A stretch of DNA of 64,000 nt from Bacteroidota bacterium (GTDB lineage Bacteria > Bacteroidota > Bacteroidia > NS11-12g > UBA955). Below are positions 5,256 to 19,669 of the stretch, in pieces. The position numbers were made by a program, and so were the translations under genes. The DNA lies in assembly GCA_027488835.1 (NCBI GenBank), contig JAIYAW010000007.1, positions 62,001 through 126,000 of the forward strand, written 5' to 3'. Position 1 is the stretch's first letter. Each line of letters opens with the position of its first letter. The notes under the pieces were generated by a model. That model was not told the origin of the DNA. It worked only from the letters and a program-made list of their open reading frames with translations, and did not search any database.

Positions 5256-6428
5256 ATGAGAATCAACGGCATCATTCTATTTATCACTCTAGTTTTAGGC
5301 GCATGCTCCTCAAACTCGAATCATGAAATTCTCGATGCAGATACAATCACTTGGAGCACAAATAAATATGCCCAACTTTTCGAAATTGGCCAAAGTAAAA
5401 CCGATACTTTCATTCGCCTTTATACCTACACAACAACCCAGTCCAATGTCCCTCAAAACAAAGCCTTAGTTGGTTCCTTTTTTTGGGGAAAATCAAAAGA
5501 AAGTAGAAACTTTTCATCCTCTCCGGGCTCAACAGAAAAGTATTATACTAAAATTTCAAAACGCCACCGTTACATCCTGCTTTCTACAGTGTTTACTCGA
5601 TTTTTTGCTGAACTAAGTCAACAAAAAAACATAGTTGCCGTGGACCAAGCAAAATATTTATGCAAAGATATTTTTCCTTATAAAAATACAATTCCATCAG
5701 TACAACCCACCGGAGAAATTAATGCCGAAGCAGCCCTCAATTTGAATCCAGACATCGTTATTGCATACTTTATTAACATCAAAGAAAAATCAAATTTAGA
5801 AAGGCTAAACACAAAAAAAACAAATGTCCTTTTTTGTCAATCTCACCTAGAAAACCATCCCTTGGGTAGGGCTGAATGGATTACACTCTTTGGCTTTTTA
5901 ACCGGAAGTGAAAAAGCATTTTTCTTCAGCGACATTGAATTCGAATATATGCGTTTGAAAAAAGATCTGTCGGAAACCATCCCTGTTAATGTAATGATTA
6001 ATCTGCCCTATTCCGGAACTTGGGATGTTCCACGACAAAACGCATATCTCGCCATTTTGCTTAAAGATGCAAAAACCAACCCTGTTTGGTTAGAAGGCAA
6101 CAATTATAAAGGTGTTGGAAGTGCACAAATTGGATTAGAACTCGGCTTTCAACTCCTTTCAAAAGCGAGTTATTGGATTAATCCAGGCATGTGTGAATCA
6201 ATTGCTTGCATCAAAAGTACGGATCCCCGAATTGGGAATTGCTTGCCCATTCTTAACCAGAAAGTTTTTCAATGTAACCTCACCCAAGAACCAGATGGCG
6301 CAAATGCTTATTGGGATCTTGGCGCAGTGCATCCCGAATATGTTTTGAGCGACTTTGCCAAAATGTTCCACAGTGAAAAACCTGATTTTGCAGCAAAAAA
6401 ATACTACTTTTACCAGCAACTCAAATGA
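5256..6428 (+). CDS. ABC uptake substrate-binding lipoprotein (BtuF/heme type)
   Basis: 390 residues beginning with a lipoprotein signal peptide (lipobox LGACSS). The body has the two-lobe architecture of helical-backbone (class III) binding proteins: a first lobe with AEAALNLNPDIVIAYF, a linking helix, and a second lobe with SGTWDVPRQNAYLAILLKDA. This family delivers cobalamin, heme or ferric siderophore to a FecCD-type permease. The next gene, which overlaps it by 4 bp (ATGA), is such a permease, so the two form one uptake system. The substrate cannot be read from sequence. No ATPase gene follows. Confidence 0.85.
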   Translation: MRINGIILFITLVLGACSSNSNHEILDADTITWSTNKYAQLFEIGQSKTDTFIRLYTYTTTQSNVPQNKALVGSFFWGKSKESRNFSSSPGSTEKYYTKISKRHRYILLSTVFTRFFAELSQQKNIVAVDQAKYLCKDIFPYKNTIPSVQPTGEINAEAALNLNPDIVIAYFINIKEKSNLERLNTKKTNVLFCQSHLENHPLGRAEWITLFGFLTGSEKAFFFSDIEFEYMRLKKDLSETIPVNVMINLPYSGTWDVPRQNAYLAILLKDAKTNPVWLEGNNYKGVGSAQIGLELGFQLLSKASYWINPGMCESIACIKSTDPRIGNCLPILNQKVFQCNLTQEPDGANAYWDLGAVHPEYVLSDFAKMFHSEKPDFAAKKYYFYQQLK

Positions 6429-7387
6429 AAGCCAAATACATCCATATCCTGCTGGCAATATGTACAATAGTCATCATTTTTGTTGATTTATTTTGGGGGA
6501 TGATGTACTCAAATACTCCTTTATTTTCAGACCTAGTATTCTCTCAATTTCGATTGCCCCGAGTTGCCGCAGCGGCGTTGGCTGGTGGAAGTTTGGCCAT
6601 ATCAGGACTAATCATGCAGACACTGTTTCGCAATCCATTGGCCGGCCCCTACCTCATTGGAATAACACCAGGTGCTAGTTTTGGTATTGCTGTTTCATTG
6701 TTTGCTCAACCGCTTTTTGCCCATTCTCCTTGGTTTGCCGAAATTGGAACTCTTACCGCAAGTATTTTGGGAGCGCTATTTGCCTTAATGATTCAACTCA
6801 TCTTGAACAAAGGATTTTCGAGTACCACACGATTGCTACTTACAGGTATGGTGCTCAGTTTTTTGTTTTCAGCAGGCGTTGATTTGCTTCAAAACATTGG
6901 CAACATTGAGCAAATAAAACAATTTAGTTTGTGGGGAATGGGAAGCTTCGAACGCGTTAAGCCGAATGAAGTTCCATATATACTCATTCCTTTGATTGTT
7001 GGCTTTGCGTTTGTAGTTTGGAATCGCTTCAAATTAGACTCCTACCTTCTCGGCGATATTTACGCTTTATCTGCTGGAGTTAACGTAACCCGCATTAGAC
7101 GAACCATGATTTTTGTTGGTGCCATCATGGCTGGCTGGATTACCGCATTTTGTGGTCCTATTAGTTTTGTGGGACTCATAGCGCCACACATTGCAAAGCG
7201 TATTTACAAAAACGAATCACACCAAAAAATATTGATTCCTTCTATCATTTGGGGGACATTTTTATGCGTATCGGCAGATTTGTTGGCCCATCACCTCATT
7301 GAGGGAATTACGCTTCAAGTCAACGCCATTTGCGCCCTCATTGGCGCACCTATCTTAATTGTGAGCTTCCGAAAAGTTCAAGGGTAG
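6425..7387 (+). CDS. FecCD-family ABC transporter permease (BtuC-like)
   Basis: 320 residues with about nine to ten membrane segments. Family marks include the N-terminal RLPRVAAAALAGGSLAISG motif, the NPLAGPYLIGITPGASFG loop and the C-terminal GPISFVGLIAPHIAKRI segment that contacts the ATPase. It would import cobalamin, heme or an iron chelate across the inner membrane. It is translationally coupled to the binding protein through an ATGA overlap. The cognate ATPase is not adjacent: the next gene is on the other strand, 4 bp away. Confidence 0.93.
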   Translation: MKAKYIHILLAICTIVIIFVDLFWGMMYSNTPLFSDLVFSQFRLPRVAAAALAGGSLAISGLIMQTLFRNPLAGPYLIGITPGASFGIAVSLFAQPLFAHSPWFAEIGTLTASILGALFALMIQLILNKGFSSTTRLLLTGMVLSFLFSAGVDLLQNIGNIEQIKQFSLWGMGSFERVKPNEVPYILIPLIVGFAFVVWNRFKLDSYLLGDIYALSAGVNVTRIRRTMIFVGAIMAGWITAFCGPISFVGLIAPHIAKRIYKNESHQKILIPSIIWGTFLCVSADLLAHHLIEGITLQVNAICALIGAPILIVSFRKVQG

Positions 7388-13204: not shown

Positions 13205-13212
13205 TACTTTTG
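13205..13212 (+). promoter_or_regulatory. -7 promoter element of the heme-uptake operon
   Basis: TACTTTTG (TAnnTTTG match) 21 nt before the ATG at 13234. No -33 TTG is evident. I see no obvious Fur-like palindrome nearby. Confidence 0.5.
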
Positions 13213-13233: not shown

Positions 13234-14556
13234 ATGAAAATGAAAAGTTTAATCAGCATGACAGCAATTTCTCTTGTAGGAAGCTTGTCCGCACAAACAG
13301 TGTACACAGACACCGTTGTAATGGGTCCAGGGTATGCAAATGAAGTTTTTTACAATGTTGCAACAGGTGTAAAAACCAAAAGCATCATGAATAAATGGCA
13401 CATTGCACACACCAGCAACACACGCGACAATTGCATCAAAGCAAATCACGCAAATGGATCACAGCCATTTGTAAAGGTTTATGCCTATCCAAAAGGTGAC
13501 AATTCAGCATATTCTTCCATGGATACTGCTGGTTGGTCTAGTTGGAAATCATTTACCAACGACGCCCACAAACATGAGTTGGGTGCTTTTAACCAAAGTG
13601 TAAACAAAGCAAACCCTTGGGATTTTTCATGGGGAACGTATAATTCAGGAACGCATATCATTACCGGTGATTCATTGTTTTTGTTGGTTGTAAATAATGG
13701 AGCTGGCAACGACTACATTAAGTTTATGCCAATTGCACAATATCCGAATGGCGATTTTACTTTCCGTTATGATGTTATTGGTGGAACAAAGAACAGTTCA
13801 ATTATTGATACGTTAAAACAGTCTGCGGCAAATGGTGGTGCATATAAATATTTCAACTTTACAACTAAATCTGTAACTGTTGAACCAAACGGTGGTGATT
13901 GGGATTTAGACTTCACCAGATATTACGATACTGCTTGGAATGGAAGTGCTTATGTTCCTTATCCACTAACTGGCGTGCAATCAAAAAGAGGTACCTTGGT
14001 TTCCAAGATTGAAAACACATTATGGGATGATTTGAAAGCAAACGGTCAACTTTTTATCGATTCTTCAAAAGACACCACCAGTGCTTTTCGTTTCCAAAAC
14101 GATCTAAGCCTAATTGGTTCTAAATGGAAGAATTTTAATGGCCAGAGCTTTGTAATGGTTGAAGATTTAAACTACATCGTTGAGAAAAAAGTGGGTTCAA
14201 GCTTCGAATATTGGGCAATTCAATTTACAGGTTTTGTAGGAGCTAGTGCCGGCAGAACTATTTTGAACAGAACAAAGTTGGGTGTGAGCGCTTCGGTAAA
14301 TAATATTGCCAACAAAGTCAGCATTTTCCCTATTCCTGCTACCAACAACATTTTCGTAAAACCTTTAATTGGCTCAAAGATCCAAACCATTGTTTTAAGA
14401 AGTATAGATGGCAAAGTGGTTCGCAGAGCAAATACCCACAACTTTGATGAAAGCAATGCTGCTCAGTTATCTATTGCAGACATGGCTTCAGGACAATACA
14501 TCATAGAAGTTCAAACTTCAATGGGTTCTCACTCACAAATCATTTCTAAAAACTAA
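13234..14556 (+). CDS. HmuY-like protein with T9SS type A sorting domain
   Basis: 440 residues from the ATG at 13234; a longer frame opens at 13156 but the signal peptide (MKSLISMTAISLVGSLSAQ) starts here. The mature part has two related modules: an N-terminal one (YANEVFYNVATGVKTK... WHIAHTS) and a second (YKYFNFTTKSVTVE... GDWDLDFTRY), both resembling HmuY hemophore strands. The last 80 residues (FPIPATNNIFVKP to the C-terminus) form a type A T9SS sorting domain, so the protein should be secreted and anchored on the cell surface. It is followed 13 bp later by the TonB receptor. Heme binding is inferred from family and context. Confidence 0.8.
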   Translation: MKMKSLISMTAISLVGSLSAQTVYTDTVVMGPGYANEVFYNVATGVKTKSIMNKWHIAHTSNTRDNCIKANHANGSQPFVKVYAYPKGDNSAYSSMDTAGWSSWKSFTNDAHKHELGAFNQSVNKANPWDFSWGTYNSGTHIITGDSLFLLVVNNGAGNDYIKFMPIAQYPNGDFTFRYDVIGGTKNSSIIDTLKQSAANGGAYKYFNFTTKSVTVEPNGGDWDLDFTRYYDTAWNGSAYVPYPLTGVQSKRGTLVSKIENTLWDDLKANGQLFIDSSKDTTSAFRFQNDLSLIGSKWKNFNGQSFVMVEDLNYIVEKKVGSSFEYWAIQFTGFVGASAGRTILNRTKLGVSASVNNIANKVSIFPIPATNNIFVKPLIGSKIQTIVLRSIDGKVVRRANTHNFDESNAAQLSIADMASGQYIIEVQTSMGSHSQIISKN

Positions 14557-14569
14557 TTCAAGATAACTC

Positions 14570-16843
14570 TTGAAAAAGTTACTATTCATATTTTTCATTT
14601 TATTGAATATTGGGTTTTCCAAAGCCCAGTCTACCGAGAGGGTTTTGTTGGTCGTTGACCAACAAAACCAACCCTTGGTAAATTTTGAAATTGAACTGCA
14701 ATTTCTTGATCCTTCAGGAAAAGTACTTCACTCACAATTATCTTCAACCGACAACGACGGTCAAATCACTACCAACTCTACTCTTCCTATTTCAATTCAT
14801 ATAAATAAAGATTTAGGAAAATTTGAAAATCCAACAAGATCCCCCTGGCTGAATACCGAAAAAGAATTAAAAATTCAGTTAATAACCGAAATCAATAGAA
14901 TTAATCCTGTTTCAATTACTGGCTCTTTGAGTCCAAGATTGGCAACGCAAAATCCATATTCCGTTGAGGTCATTTCTCAAAAAACAATTGCATTGATGGG
15001 TGCGCAAAACTTAACAGAAGTGCTACAAAATCAATCGAATATACAATTAAGCCAAGATCCAGTGTTAGGAAGTTCTATCCAACTGCAAGGACTTGGTGGT
15101 CAAAATGTGAAAATTTTAGTAAACAGTGTGCCCATGATTGGCCGCATGAATGGCAACCTCGATATTTCTCAAATTCCAATGAATAACGTGGAACGTATTG
15201 AAATCATTGAAGGACCCATGAGTGCCGTTTACGGATCAGATGCCATTGGTGGCGTTGTGAATATCATTACCAAAAAACCCATTTCAAATGTGAATCGGGT
15301 TCAAACCAATTCGTATATTGATGGCGTTGGAAATACCAATATAGATGCCAATTTCCAACTTGGAAATTTAAGTAAAAAATCGAGAATTGGACTTGTTTGC
15401 GATATGGGACGTCAGTTTTTTGGAGGGACAGATTTCGACCCATCTACCCGTTCGGCAGATTGGAAACCAAAGACAAAGCTTTTTGGTTCAATCGGGCTCA
15501 ATTATCAATTAAAAAAATCAAACCACCTGCTCAGATATAGTGCGTTCCACGAAAAAATTACAGACAGAAGTGACGCTGAATTCAATCTAATTACCGTTAC
15601 TGGTTACAACAACTATTTTAACACATACAGAAACGACTTTTTATTGCTATCTGACTTTACCCTGAATAAACGAAATAAGTTGCAATTTCAGAATAGTTTC
15701 AACACATACAAACGCAAAAAGACCATGGTGCGTAGAAATCTGGTTGAAGGTACAGAAATCCTCACTCGCGGTGAAGACCAGGACACAACTACGAATTACC
15801 AAGCCAATTTTAGGGGGTTTTGGAGTTACCAAAGTGCAAACAAGAAAATTGACTGGTTAACAGGATATGAAGGCCAATATGAATCCATCCAAACCAAAAG
15901 GGTGACCAAAAGAGATGGTATTTTTGATATGGGCATATTTAGTACGGCCGATATCAATTTGTCGCCAAAAGTTCAATTAAAACCTTCTGTTCGTTTCGTT
16001 TATAACAATCAATTTGGAACCAATCCTTTGCCAGGAATTTTGAGTAATGGCTTTAAAATTGCACCCATTATTCCATCGTTGCAATTGAAATTCAATGCCA
16101 CCAAACACCTTGCAATACGGGGTTCCTATGCACGAGGCTTCAGGGCCCCGAACATCAAAGAATTGTATTTCATGTTTGTAGACATCAACCATAATGTTCA
16201 AGGAAATCAATTGTTAACTACTGAAACAGCGCATAATTTTATAGGATCTATTGATTACCGTCATAACATAAATAACATTTCGGCGGTTACTTTTAAATTG
16301 TCCTATTTCGAAAACTTTGTAACAAACCAAATCCAGTTGGCGTTGGTAGATAATAAATCTAATTTATACCAATACATCAATATTGGCAAAATGAATTCGC
16401 AGGGTGTAAATTCTCAAATTGAATATTTCTATAATCAGCTGCAAATCAAGTTAAGTTCAAGTTGGATTAACAACGAAAGTTTAAGTGACGATGGAAGTAA
16501 TTGGAAAAAGTGGACTGTAGTTCAAACAGGTTTAAATTTGATGTACACATTTCAGAAGCCTAAAGTATCTTTGCAATGGTTTAGCCGTTACACTGGCAAA
16601 AACTATGGATTTGAAGAAACTGGAAAACCTTTTGAAATTGCACCCTATTTTATTGCCGATATGAGTATGTCCGTTCCTTTGTTAAATGAGCACATTCTAA
16701 TTCAAGCCGGATGCAAAAATATTTTTGGAGTAACTCAGGTATTGTCCTCTGCCTCAACAGGGTCAGTTCATAATAATGGAAATGGCAATTTAAATATTGC
16801 CAATGGAAGAAATTTATTTGTAAGTATAAAAATCAATTTGTAA
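14570..16843 (+). CDS. TonB-dependent outer membrane receptor, HmuR-like
   Basis: 757 residues. Signal peptide, a short N-terminal beta domain (about 25-105), a plug (VEVISQKTIALMGAQNLTEV to GAIGGVVNIITKK-like DAIGGVVNIITKK, about 130-240) and a 22-strand barrel. In the barrel the segment RGFRAPNIKELYFMFVDINH is the FRAP-type motif of heme receptors such as HmuR; the usual NPDL that follows is replaced by NQLL. It imports its ligand with TonB-ExbBD energy. The start is TTG: it gives a perfect signal peptide and no ATG is available. It sits between two HmuY-like genes, supporting heme as substrate. Confidence 0.9.
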   Translation: MKKLLFIFFILLNIGFSKAQSTERVLLVVDQQNQPLVNFEIELQFLDPSGKVLHSQLSSTDNDGQITTNSTLPISIHINKDLGKFENPTRSPWLNTEKELKIQLITEINRINPVSITGSLSPRLATQNPYSVEVISQKTIALMGAQNLTEVLQNQSNIQLSQDPVLGSSIQLQGLGGQNVKILVNSVPMIGRMNGNLDISQIPMNNVERIEIIEGPMSAVYGSDAIGGVVNIITKKPISNVNRVQTNSYIDGVGNTNIDANFQLGNLSKKSRIGLVCDMGRQFFGGTDFDPSTRSADWKPKTKLFGSIGLNYQLKKSNHLLRYSAFHEKITDRSDAEFNLITVTGYNNYFNTYRNDFLLLSDFTLNKRNKLQFQNSFNTYKRKKTMVRRNLVEGTEILTRGEDQDTTTNYQANFRGFWSYQSANKKIDWLTGYEGQYESIQTKRVTKRDGIFDMGIFSTADINLSPKVQLKPSVRFVYNNQFGTNPLPGILSNGFKIAPIIPSLQLKFNATKHLAIRGSYARGFRAPNIKELYFMFVDINHNVQGNQLLTTETAHNFIGSIDYRHNINNISAVTFKLSYFENFVTNQIQLALVDNKSNLYQYINIGKMNSQGVNSQIEYFYNQLQIKLSSSWINNESLSDDGSNWKKWTVVQTGLNLMYTFQKPKVSLQWFSRYTGKNYGFEETGKPFEIAPYFIADMSMSVPLLNEHILIQAGCKNIFGVTQVLSSASTGSVHNNGNGNLNIANGRNLFVSIKINL

Positions 16844-16845
16844 AA

Positions 16846-17871
16846 GTGAAACTCAAATTCAATCCCTTCGTTCTTCTTTCAATTGTACTGTTTACTTTTT
16901 TCTCATGCGAAAAGCCTGAATCACTCTATAAACAGCCAACTATCCCTCAAGGACTTCAAACACAAACCTTTGCAATGGGTGAAACATATTCAAATCAACT
17001 TTGGTTTGATTTTGAAACTCAAAAAACAACGGTAAATACCTATGGCAATTGGGATATTGCATTTTCATGCCAAAACGAGCCATCCGTTGTGATTTGTGGG
17101 GGAAAAAATAGCAATTTTACCGTTGCCGAATTTGAAAATGTAAATTTTAAAGACATAGATGCTTCCTATCTAACTGCTGCAAAATGGAAGTTTGATCAAC
17201 CAAGCGGCAAAATTGATTCTTCTGCTTTTGGCCGTTGTTTTAATAAAGTGGTTGATGGATACGAAGGCAAATCTGCAATTTATGTTTTGGATTTAGGAGA
17301 AGATTCTCTCAAAAGCTTCAGATATATCAAAATTCAATTTATTGGAGTAAAAGGCGGCGCCTATCAATTTAAGTGGGGTTATGTAAACGTACCCGCATTG
17401 ACGTACTTAACCCAAATGGTAACGGACCCAAGTAAAAATTACGTTTATTACTCCTTTTCAAAAAAAGATGTGGTCGAAAATGAACCTGTAGCTAGCGAAG
17501 ATTGGGATTTGGTTTTTACTACCTATAAAGAATCAGTAAACGATCCAAATGGCGTTCCCTATAACTACATCATTCGTGGGGCGCTTGCCAATTTAAAAAC
17601 CATATCAATTGCACAAATTGACAAAGGTATTGCTTATGAGGCCTGCGACAAAACTTTTGCATTACAGCAAAAGTTTAGGAATAATGCCGACGAAATTGGC
17701 TACGATTGGAAAGAATACAGTCAATCAATTGGAAAATATGCAATCGTTCCAAACCGATATTATATCATTAAAACAGCAACCAATGACTATTTTAAATTGA
17801 AGTTTGTAGATTTTTATGACGACCAAGGCCGCAAAGGTTATCCCAAAATGGCTTGGCAAATCCTTCCCTAA
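16846..17871 (+). CDS. HmuY-family lipoprotein
   Basis: 341 residues, GTG start 2 bp after the receptor stop. The lipobox TFFSCEK gives a surface or periplasmic lipoprotein. Two HmuY-type modules are visible: YSNQLWFDFETQKTTVN with GNWDIAFSCQ, then YVYYSFSKKDVVENE with EDWDLVFTTY, closing with FKLKFVDFYDDQGRKGYP, a strong HmuY ending. In Porphyromonas, HmuY takes heme from host proteins and passes it to HmuR. The module order is the same as in the T9SS-secreted protein at 13234, so the operon encodes two paralogous hemophore-like proteins with different anchors. Confidence 0.87.
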   Translation: MKLKFNPFVLLSIVLFTFFSCEKPESLYKQPTIPQGLQTQTFAMGETYSNQLWFDFETQKTTVNTYGNWDIAFSCQNEPSVVICGGKNSNFTVAEFENVNFKDIDASYLTAAKWKFDQPSGKIDSSAFGRCFNKVVDGYEGKSAIYVLDLGEDSLKSFRYIKIQFIGVKGGAYQFKWGYVNVPALTYLTQMVTDPSKNYVYYSFSKKDVVENEPVASEDWDLVFTTYKESVNDPNGVPYNYIIRGALANLKTISIAQIDKGIAYEACDKTFALQQKFRNNADEIGYDWKEYSQSIGKYAIVPNRYYIIKTATNDYFKLKFVDFYDDQGRKGYPKMAWQILP

Positions 17872-17891: not shown

Positions 17892-18971
17892 ATGAAATTT
17901 CTTATCTCTATTTTTTGCCTTGGCTTTGGTGCTAAAATGGTATCTGCCCAAAATACTTCGCCATCTGTTCCTTTGGCTGATACCATAACCAAAGAAAAGC
18001 ATCTGAAAAACTTGCGCCAACTTACATTTGGTGGCGACAATGCCGAGGCTTATTTTAGTTTTGATAGCAAAGCATTAACATTCCAAAGCAATAACGCAAA
18101 ATGGGGCGTAAAATGCGATCAAATTTTTCATAGCACTATTGAAAGTTTCACTAATAATGGAAGCTACCAACCACCAATGCTAAGTACAGGACAAGGAAGA
18201 ACCACCTGCTCTTATTTCATGCCTGGAAACGAAACAATTTTATATGCAAGCACACATTTGGGTGGTAAAGATTGCCCGCCTACTCCTGAAACATCTGGGG
18301 CGTATTTGTGGCCAATTTATGCCGATTTCGACATTTTTGTTGCCGACAAAAAAGGAAATATCATCAAACAATTGACTTATGAAAAAGGTTACGATGCCGA
18401 GGCAACTGTTTCTCCCGATGGCAAATCGATTGTATTCACAAGCACCCGAAGCGGTGACTTAGAATTGTGGATCATGGACATCGACGGATCTAACCCACGT
18501 CAAATTACTTTTGGCTTGGGTTACGACGGAGGTGCATTCTTTTCGCCAGATAGTAAGAAGTTGGTATTCAGGGCTTCTCGTCCTCAAACCCCCGAAGAGA
18601 TTACAAAATATAAGGATTATTTGTCGAAAAACCTAGTGGCTCCGACCAATATGGAAATTTATACGGTGAATGTTGATGGTAGTGATTTGAAACAAATTAC
18701 CCATTTAGGCAAAGCCAATTGGGCCCCTTTTTATCATCCTTCACAAAAGAAAATTATTTTTTCTTCGAATCACCATAGCACAAGAGGTTACGATTTCCAA
18801 TTGTACATGATTGATATTGATGGAAACAATGTAGAAAAAATTACCAATGCAAGTATTTTCAATGCGTTTCCAATGTTTTCACCTGATGGTAAAAAATTAG
18901 TCTTTAGCAGCAACAGAAACAATGGTGGAACAAGAGACACGAATTTGTTTATTGCTGACTGGGAAGACTAA
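17892..18971 (+). CDS. TolB-like PD40 beta-propeller protein, exported
   Basis: 359 residues from the ATG at 17892 (the frame is open from 17853, overlapping hmuY, but the signal peptide MKFLISIFCLGFGAKMVSAQ starts here). It contains at least four WD40-like PD40 repeats: AEATVSPDGKSIVFTSTRSG, GAFFSPDSKKLVF, APFYHPSQKKIIFSSN and FPMFSPDGKKLVFSSNRNNG. These form a propeller similar to the TolB C-terminal domain. Partner and function are unknown. It lies 20 bp after the HmuY lipoprotein gene and overlaps recO by one base, so it may belong to either group. Confidence 0.85.
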   Translation: MKFLISIFCLGFGAKMVSAQNTSPSVPLADTITKEKHLKNLRQLTFGGDNAEAYFSFDSKALTFQSNNAKWGVKCDQIFHSTIESFTNNGSYQPPMLSTGQGRTTCSYFMPGNETILYASTHLGGKDCPPTPETSGAYLWPIYADFDIFVADKKGNIIKQLTYEKGYDAEATVSPDGKSIVFTSTRSGDLELWIMDIDGSNPRQITFGLGYDGGAFFSPDSKKLVFRASRPQTPEEITKYKDYLSKNLVAPTNMEIYTVNVDGSDLKQITHLGKANWAPFYHPSQKKIIFSSNHHSTRGYDFQLYMIDIDGNNVEKITNASIFNAFPMFSPDGKKLVFSSNRNNGGTRDTNLFIADWED

Positions 18972-19669
18972 TGCTCGTTAAAAGCCAAGCCATTGTTTTA
19001 AAGAAAATACCTTATACCGATCACGCTTCGGTGGTTACCATTTACACCCGTGAAATTGGGTTACAACGTTTTCTGGTTCAAGGTTTGCATAAAAAAATCA
19101 GCAAGAACGCTTATTATCAGCTAGGAAACACTGTTGAAATTATTTTCAACCACAAAACAAATCCGGGCTTATTGCGTATCAAAGAAATTTCTTCAATCGG
19201 CACGCAAAGTGCTTTTGAAGATTTCGGAATTCAGCAAGTGAAATGGTTTTACCTAGAAATTGTAAGCCATTCGCTGCAAGATGAACATTCTGATCCTTTG
19301 TTGTTCGATTTTATCTATAGCCATTTTCTAAAATTAGTGCCCGGAGCCAATTTGAATTTCTTGCCCATTGCATTCCTCTTGGGGCTAGGAATGGAATTAG
19401 GATATGAAATTGACTGGCATGCAGGACAAAATGCCGCAATTGACCTAACAACGGGAAATTTGGCCACAAATGCCACACCCATCTTCTTCAAATCGGATTC
19501 GTGGATGAATCAGGCTATTTTGAAAATTATGGATGGAAATCTTCCTGCGCTTACTAAATCGGAAAGGCGTATGATAATTGACAAACTGGTTTCCCATTTG
19601 CAACATCACCTCTTCCCTCAAAAACAACTTTTGTCGTTAGAAATATTTGATATGCTTAATTCGCAGTAA
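18971..19669 (+). CDS. recO: DNA repair protein RecO
   Basis: 232 residues. The N-terminal OB fold is typical ([20 protein letters not shown], then [10 protein letters not shown]), followed by the helical bundle with [13 protein letters not shown] and [14 protein letters not shown]. RecO anneals SSB-coated DNA and loads RecA with RecR. The zinc-finger cysteines of some RecO proteins are absent, which is common. Its ATG shares one base with the upstream stop (TAATG), and its 3' end overlaps the convergent fbp gene by 14 bp. Confidence 0.92.

Follow-up and report, generated by a model that had tools for sequence, protein, structure and literature searches.

In a 64,000 nt stretch of DNA from a Bacteroidota bacterium (here called the window), we found three adjacent genes that probably form an HmuY/HmuR-type operon for heme acquisition, here with two anchors and tandem modules. 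Two of the genes encode paralogous proteins that each contain two HmuY-like modules, one predicted to be exported by the type IX secretion system (T9SS) and the other to be a lipoprotein, and the gene between them encodes a TonB-dependent receptor. In the mechanism we propose, heme would first be caught by the tandem-HmuY protein that the T9SS exports to, or past, the cell surface. The tandem-HmuY lipoprotein would be positioned beside the receptor, on the outside of the outer membrane, and would pass heme on to this receptor, which would take it into the periplasm via a His in its FRAP/NxxL loop. We infer heme as the ligand, its handover and the direction of that handover from the evidence set out below, and the relay between the two HmuY-like proteins, which a preliminary description of this region had suggested, is plausible.

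The gene for the T9SS-exported protein (positions 13234–14556, + strand) encodes 440 amino acids from an ATG start, with a predicted signal peptide at approximately residues 1–19. The receptor gene (14570–16843, + strand; 757 aa, TTG start) follows after 13 nt and the lipoprotein gene (16846–17871, + strand; 341 aa, GTG start) after another 2 nt. The starts at 13234 and 16846 are those given in the preliminary description. A further 20 nt downstream is a gene for a secreted PD40 beta-propeller protein (17892–18971, + strand; PF07676), which overlaps recO (18971–19669, + strand) by one base. As the gaps are short and recO overlaps its neighbour, the five genes from the T9SS gene through recO probably share one transcript. 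The box TACTTTTG at 13205–13212 (+ strand) resembles TAnnTTTG, which we take to be the Bacteroidota −7 element, and no −33 element matching this box was found. A longer open reading frame for the T9SS protein, from 13156, would begin upstream of the box. The HSP70 gene upstream is divergent from the operon, and the window neighbours of the trio are HSP70, a 238-aa protein with no Pfam match, PD40 and RecO. A Pfam scan found no hmuS, HmuTUV or HemS genes adjoining the trio in the window, and an operon of the HmuS/HmuTUV type was rejected because such genes are missing beside the trio. A gene for a periplasmic binding protein (PF01497, 2.2e-10), together with one for a FecCD permease (PF01032, 1.9e-71), lies at 5256–7387, upstream of the trio by approximately 6 kb and in the same orientation; the two products could carry heme, or some other chelate, across the inner membrane. 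In several related loci, too, a FecCD-like open reading frame was seen at the upstream limit of the region.

The N and C modules occupy residues 20–185 (13291–13788) and 186–352 (13789–14289) of the T9SS protein, and residues 30–193 (16933–17424) and 194–341 (17425–17868) of the lipoprotein, all on the + strand. The motifs that had been quoted as common to the two are present in both, as YANEVFYNVATG...WHIA (residues 34–58) and FNFTTKSVTVEPNGGDWDLDFTRY (207–230) in the T9SS protein, and as WDIA (69–72) after YSNQLWFDFETQ (from the translation) and YSFSKKDVVENEPVASEDWDLVFTTY (202–227) in the lipoprotein. The claim that the proteins are paralogues with two modules each was borne out by pairwise BLASTP, profile–profile and module comparisons, which agree. 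The window proteins aligned colinearly over nearly their full length in pairwise BLASTP (E = 4e-7), and the profiles of the two families matched at E = 2.5e-40 over 291 columns. Between the proteins, the N module profiles matched one another at 3.9e-22 and the C module profiles at 3.4e-36, while the N and C modules within each protein matched more weakly (1.2e-6 and 5.4e-7, probability 91–92). As the N–N and C–C matches are much stronger than those within a protein, the two-module arrangement probably predates the split, and the T9SS protein and lipoprotein probably arose by duplication of an ancestor that already had two modules. In a quick tree built from 70 protein bodies (31 T9SS, 39 lipoprotein), a single branch with support 100 separates the two types completely. 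The Pfam HmuY model (PF14064) matched two stretches of the lipoprotein with 63.8 bits (2.6e-17) against a cut-off of 27, and did not match the T9SS protein, which joins the HmuY family only via family profiles. The likeness that had been noticed is thus one that Pfam misses, and the observation was right and understated. The lipoprotein alignment used here comprises the window protein and 76 of the 77 lipoproteins (a 207-aa fragment, L149, was left out). In the search for relatives, the weakest matches of several relatives cover the sorting domain only, and a collection scan with the broad T9SS-protein alignment returned no result.

Structure prediction and comparison with HmuY, which the preliminary description had proposed as a check, gave predicted folds that are HmuY-like for both proteins. 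The AlphaFold2 models had pLDDT values of 92.3 for the lipoprotein and 87.8 for the T9SS protein. With the lipoprotein model, all 10 Foldseek matches at E ≤ 0.001 were HmuY-family chains, and VIA gave Z 14.7 to PinO (136 aligned, 3.1 Å) and 14.4 to HmuY 3h8t (139 aligned, 3.0 Å). With the T9SS protein model, Foldseek alone was weak (PinO, E = 0.01), and the top six VIA rows were all HmuY-family, from Z 13.9 (130 aligned, 2.8 Å) to 11.2. Three of the four modules also reach solved HmuY-family chains by sequence profile. The C module of the lipoprotein matched HmuY-family 8b6a at 1.6e-8 and HmuY 3h8t at 1.2e-4, that of the T9SS protein matched the same chains at 5e-5 and 5.1e-4, and the best match of the T9SS N module among solved-structure sequences was 8b6a (E = 0.0024). 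For the lipoprotein N module, HmuY was on top among solved-structure sequences and was not significant (E = 0.11). A different fold for the T9SS protein, inferred from the Pfam miss, was rejected by the profile matches and the structure model. The VIA alignments to HmuY-family chains start close to the first strand and extend to the end (approximately 29–38 to 341 in the lipoprotein and 19–24 to 349–351 in the T9SS protein), so the models hint that the first strand may pack with the C module in both proteins.

The different anchors that had been claimed for the two proteins were confirmed as a type A T9SS sorting domain on one and a lipobox Cys on the other. The C-terminal domain of the T9SS protein (residues 353–440; 14290–14553, + strand) exceeded the cut-offs of PF18962 (28.8 bits, cut-off 27; 1.5e-6) and TIGR04183 (29.3 bits, cut-off 23; 6.1e-7), and the last 80 residues of the protein match the CTDs of T9SS cargo, with Z 9.7 over 75 residues to the RemA CTD (VIA). 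By these curated cut-offs and the CTD fold of the model, the protein is a predicted type A T9SS cargo. The lipobox Cys of the lipoprotein (residue 21; 16906–16908, + strand) is present in 77/77 lipoprotein rows. In Capnocytophaga, C-x-K-(D/E)2 after this Cys is described as a surface-export signal in the available text of the source (PMC5080379). The strict form occurs in 34 of the 77 lipoproteins, C-x-[KR]-x-[DE] in 64, and an acid at +5 in all 77; the window lipoprotein, with CEKPES, fits the signal except for Pro at +4. From these residues we provisionally place the lipoprotein on the outside of the outer membrane.

The receptor between the two, which had been described as FRAP-type, has plug and barrel domains (PF07715, 7.1e-23; PF00593, 3.9e-27), and FRAP was found at 16139–16150, followed by a conserved His codon at 16190–16192 (FRAP to His, 16139–16192, + strand) and then GNxxL. 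Across 120 receptor rows, the FRAP proline and the NxxL leucine are present in 120/120, a His 14 residues after that proline in 117/120 and a second His near the C terminus in 115/120. These rows pool 60 relatives' regions with 80 loci and some genomes are in both sets (e.g. L064 and L123), so they do not represent 120 independent genomes. According to the available text of PMC9331221, heme and haemoglobin receptors share conserved FRAP/NxxL boxes and a His in loop L7, and by its motif the window receptor is a candidate member of that group. Its match to the TIGR01785 heme receptor model (3.4e-36) scored 124.9 bits, far below the cut-off of 316.85, and it is therefore not filed under that model. 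The TonB-B12 model gave a nearly equal 3.9e-32, also below cut-off, and among solved structures CirA and BtuB rank above heme receptors by sequence. The overall similarity of the receptor, as judged by such models, is not ligand-specific.

The locus survey covered the best 80 of 445 relatives, with a query mostly from the family to which the window belongs, and 16 of the 80 loci are cut by contig ends. The T9SS protein, receptor and lipoprotein genes are adjacent and in this order in 57 of the 64 readable loci among these best 80 of 445. In the others, the T9SS gene is upstream after a gap (four), after the lipoprotein gene (two) or not present (one). The closest named relatives among the best 80 of 445 are uncultured Flavobacteriales/Bacteroidetes MAGs. 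We also drew a sample of 217 genomes of the class at ≥90% completeness, for which counts rest on the matches listed. The T9SS and lipoprotein models each matched the same number of genomes (84/217). Among the matches listed, both proteins are present in 80 genomes, the T9SS protein alone in none, the lipoprotein type alone in four (G070, G094, G226 and G242) and neither in 133, and the co-segregation check proposed earlier thus came out in favour of the pair. In 77 of the 80 pair genomes the two genes share a contig and a strand and lie within 6.5 kb of each other; they are on opposite strands in one genome and on different contigs in two. The matches in this sample span 59 genera. Among the 60 regions from relatives, three receptor–lipoprotein pairs (L111, L114 and L115) have no T9SS gene despite room upstream, and at least two of them are extra copies in genomes where a full trio also occurs. 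Such pairs indicate that this type of receptor has no strict requirement for the T9SS protein. In 33 of the 80 loci a PD40 homologue follows in the same orientation, ≤2.5 kb downstream, whereas 41 have none and in six the contig is too short to tell, and PD40 proteins were also seen behind L111 and L114; PD40 is a possible fourth member of the system in this clade. In the family scan of neighbours, which took in 116 of 145 neighbour open reading frames, a DNA N4/N6 methylase gene was seen between the T9SS gene and the receptor at one locus (L159:6719-7723).

Genes for heme import (periplasmic binding protein, FecCD permease, ABC ATPase and HemS/ChuX) lie beside the trio in 4 of the 80 loci. 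In L180 the set is flanked by the T9SS gene on one side and the receptor gene on the other, in L189 it precedes the receptor, and in L165 and L167 it is convergent and just downstream of the trio. The host genome of the window is a 2.49 Mb draft in nine contigs, 99.4% complete. HemB, HemE and HemH (PF00490, PF01208 and PF00762) were not found in it, while controls matched, nor was the HemS family; a heme-copper oxidase (COX1, PF00115) is present. As these three synthesis families are missing and the oxidase is present, the host is a predicted heme auxotroph, judged on three families in a draft of this completeness. As the genome seems unable to make heme, imported heme would be used intact in this organism. 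Of 57 genomes of the order, a single one (G033) has a detected ferrochelatase (1/43 at ≥90% completeness), and the last step of heme synthesis has apparently been lost across the order. Among the matches listed for the 217 class genomes, ferrochelatase was undetected in 55 of the 80 with the pair versus 23 of the 137 without (Fisher odds ratio 10.9, p 2e-14, kinship ignored). Counted by family the association is weaker, with no sampled genome carrying ferrochelatase in 12 of 29 families with the pair versus 6 of 37 without it (p 0.029, kinship ignored). The pair is thus enriched in, and not confined to, genomes without ferrochelatase.

The paired heme ligands of Porphyromonas gingivalis HmuY are His134 and His166. 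According to the available text of PMC9331221, ligands differ between members of the HmuY family. The residue aligned with His166 is His or Met in only 2 of 77 lipoproteins and 10 of 61 T9SS proteins, a count that covers this position, as the His134 position could not be aligned. As the His166 position is rarely His or Met, the HmuY coordination mode does not appear to have been carried over. The best conserved candidate ligands are His141 in the N module of the T9SS protein (47/61) and Met44 in the lipoprotein (61/77).

Heme as the ligand is supported by the receptor His, by the import genes in 4 of 80 loci and by the missing heme synthesis in the genome. The rarity of His or Met at the His166 position, a receptor that by sequence is nearer to CirA/BtuB and far below the TIGR01785 cut-off, the 25 of 80 pair genomes of the class that do have ferrochelatase, the weak association when families are counted, and the lack of HmuS, HmuTUV or HemS beside the window trio count against it, as does the Flavobacterium columnare ΔhmuY mutant, which lacks a T9SS-secreted HmuY and is reported in the available text to have grown like wild type (PMC9618737). 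The ligand might instead be another tetrapyrrole or a metal complex (cobalamin, a heme precursor or a siderophore) for which the HmuY fold has been reused. No HmuY-type ligand residue is conserved at the position that could be aligned, the TonB-B12 and TonB-hemin scores are almost equal with CirA and BtuB the nearest solved receptors, and one locus has a CbiX-like gene within the operon. We consider such a ligand unlikely, given that HemS, a heme-handling protein, is encoded beside the trio in four loci, that the His in the heme-receptor loop is near-invariant, that the host appears to lack heme synthesis, and that an Rfam scan of the window, with no family at gathering score, revealed no cobalamin riboswitch. 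In L200 (4087-7420) the CbiX-like gene belongs to a block of four genes separating the T9SS gene from the receptor, which also includes one for an FMN-binding/4Fe-4S protein, and this insert may reflect a different handling of an imported tetrapyrrole.

If the ligand is heme, the receptor may depend on the lipoprotein alone, in the way proposed for HfpR and HfpY. The T9SS protein would then work independently, either released or at the surface, as a scavenger stripping proteins of their heme or as a heme store. This is a serious possibility, though one we lean against. It would account for the receptor–lipoprotein pairs that have no T9SS gene and for the lipoprotein type found alone in 4 of 84 class genomes among the matches listed. 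The Thr-His of the T9SS N module (His141) has no similarly conserved His column in the lipoprotein, and the two proteins may therefore not do the same job. An independent T9SS protein fits less well with the finding that, among the matches listed for the 217 genomes, it never occurs where the lipoprotein is missing, and with the position of its gene directly before the receptor in 57 of the 64 readable loci among the best 80 of 445. That the pair is simply redundant, a duplicated hemophore gene whose products go to separate locations and are functionally uncoupled, seems very unlikely; both proteins do probably stem from duplication of a two-module ancestor, but they form separate single clades, no lone T9SS copy was found among the matches listed, and gene order is fixed in a sample with matches from 59 genera. 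A heme-acquisition operon with two anchors remains our preferred reading.

Parts of this arrangement are already in print, namely HmuY–receptor pairs (PMC9331221), a T9SS-secreted HmuY (PMC9618737) and iron-regulated neighbours comprising HmuY and a T9SS cargo (PMC10434189). In Flavobacterium psychrophilum, the HmuY-family protein HfpY binds heme and is co-transcribed with the receptor HfpR, and, like the window operon, this unit has a TonB receptor and an HmuY-family protein with no HmuS-TUV (PMC9331221). It differs in having one HmuY-family protein, a DoxX-family gene between the two and the receptor first, FRAP/NxxL is only partially conserved in HfpR, and the available text describes no T9SS partner (PMC9331221). 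F. columnare C6N29_01035 likewise carries an HmuY domain and Por_Secre_tail on one protein, and neither its module number nor a neighbouring receptor–lipoprotein pair is described in the available text (PMC9618737). The hmuYRSTUV operons of Porphyromonas and Bacteroides share an HmuY-fold lipoprotein beside a heme TonB receptor but, as described in the portions available, include the HmuS de-chelatase and HmuTUV and no T9SS HmuY (PMC12583661, PMC10434189). Solved HmuY chains are approximately half as long as the window proteins, one module's worth. In Prevotella intermedia, PIOMA14_I_1196-98 places HmuY beside a T9SS-sorted protein, and hmuY and the T9SS cargo gene were induced 116- and 104-fold by iron limitation; that unit has no receptor, and its T9SS protein is not described as HmuY-like in the available text (PMC10434189). 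In the open-licence literature, to the extent that its text was available, we found no description of a trio of T9SS HmuY, receptor and HmuY lipoprotein.

According to the available text of PMC11139205, a survey of freshwater and marine heme auxotrophs detected no known heme receptor in 60% of the genomes, and receptors of unknown type were suggested. The trio is a concrete and widespread candidate heme receptor system for such auxotrophs: it occurs in relatives of the window genome that lack ferrochelatase, and its HmuY-like pair is present in 80 of the 217 Bacteroidia genomes among the matches listed. We regard as doubtful the stronger proposition that the relay is the main heme supply of whole free-living heme-auxotrophic Bacteroidia lineages, with the tethered tandem HmuY acting as a lid on the receptor and heme held in a way unlike that in known HmuY, perhaps between the two modules of each protein. 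With three proteins in hand, how such bacteria obtain heme becomes directly testable. If our reading is true, paralogous ligand-binding proteins grouped around a single receptor would be exported by two parallel routes, the T9SS and the lipoprotein pathway.
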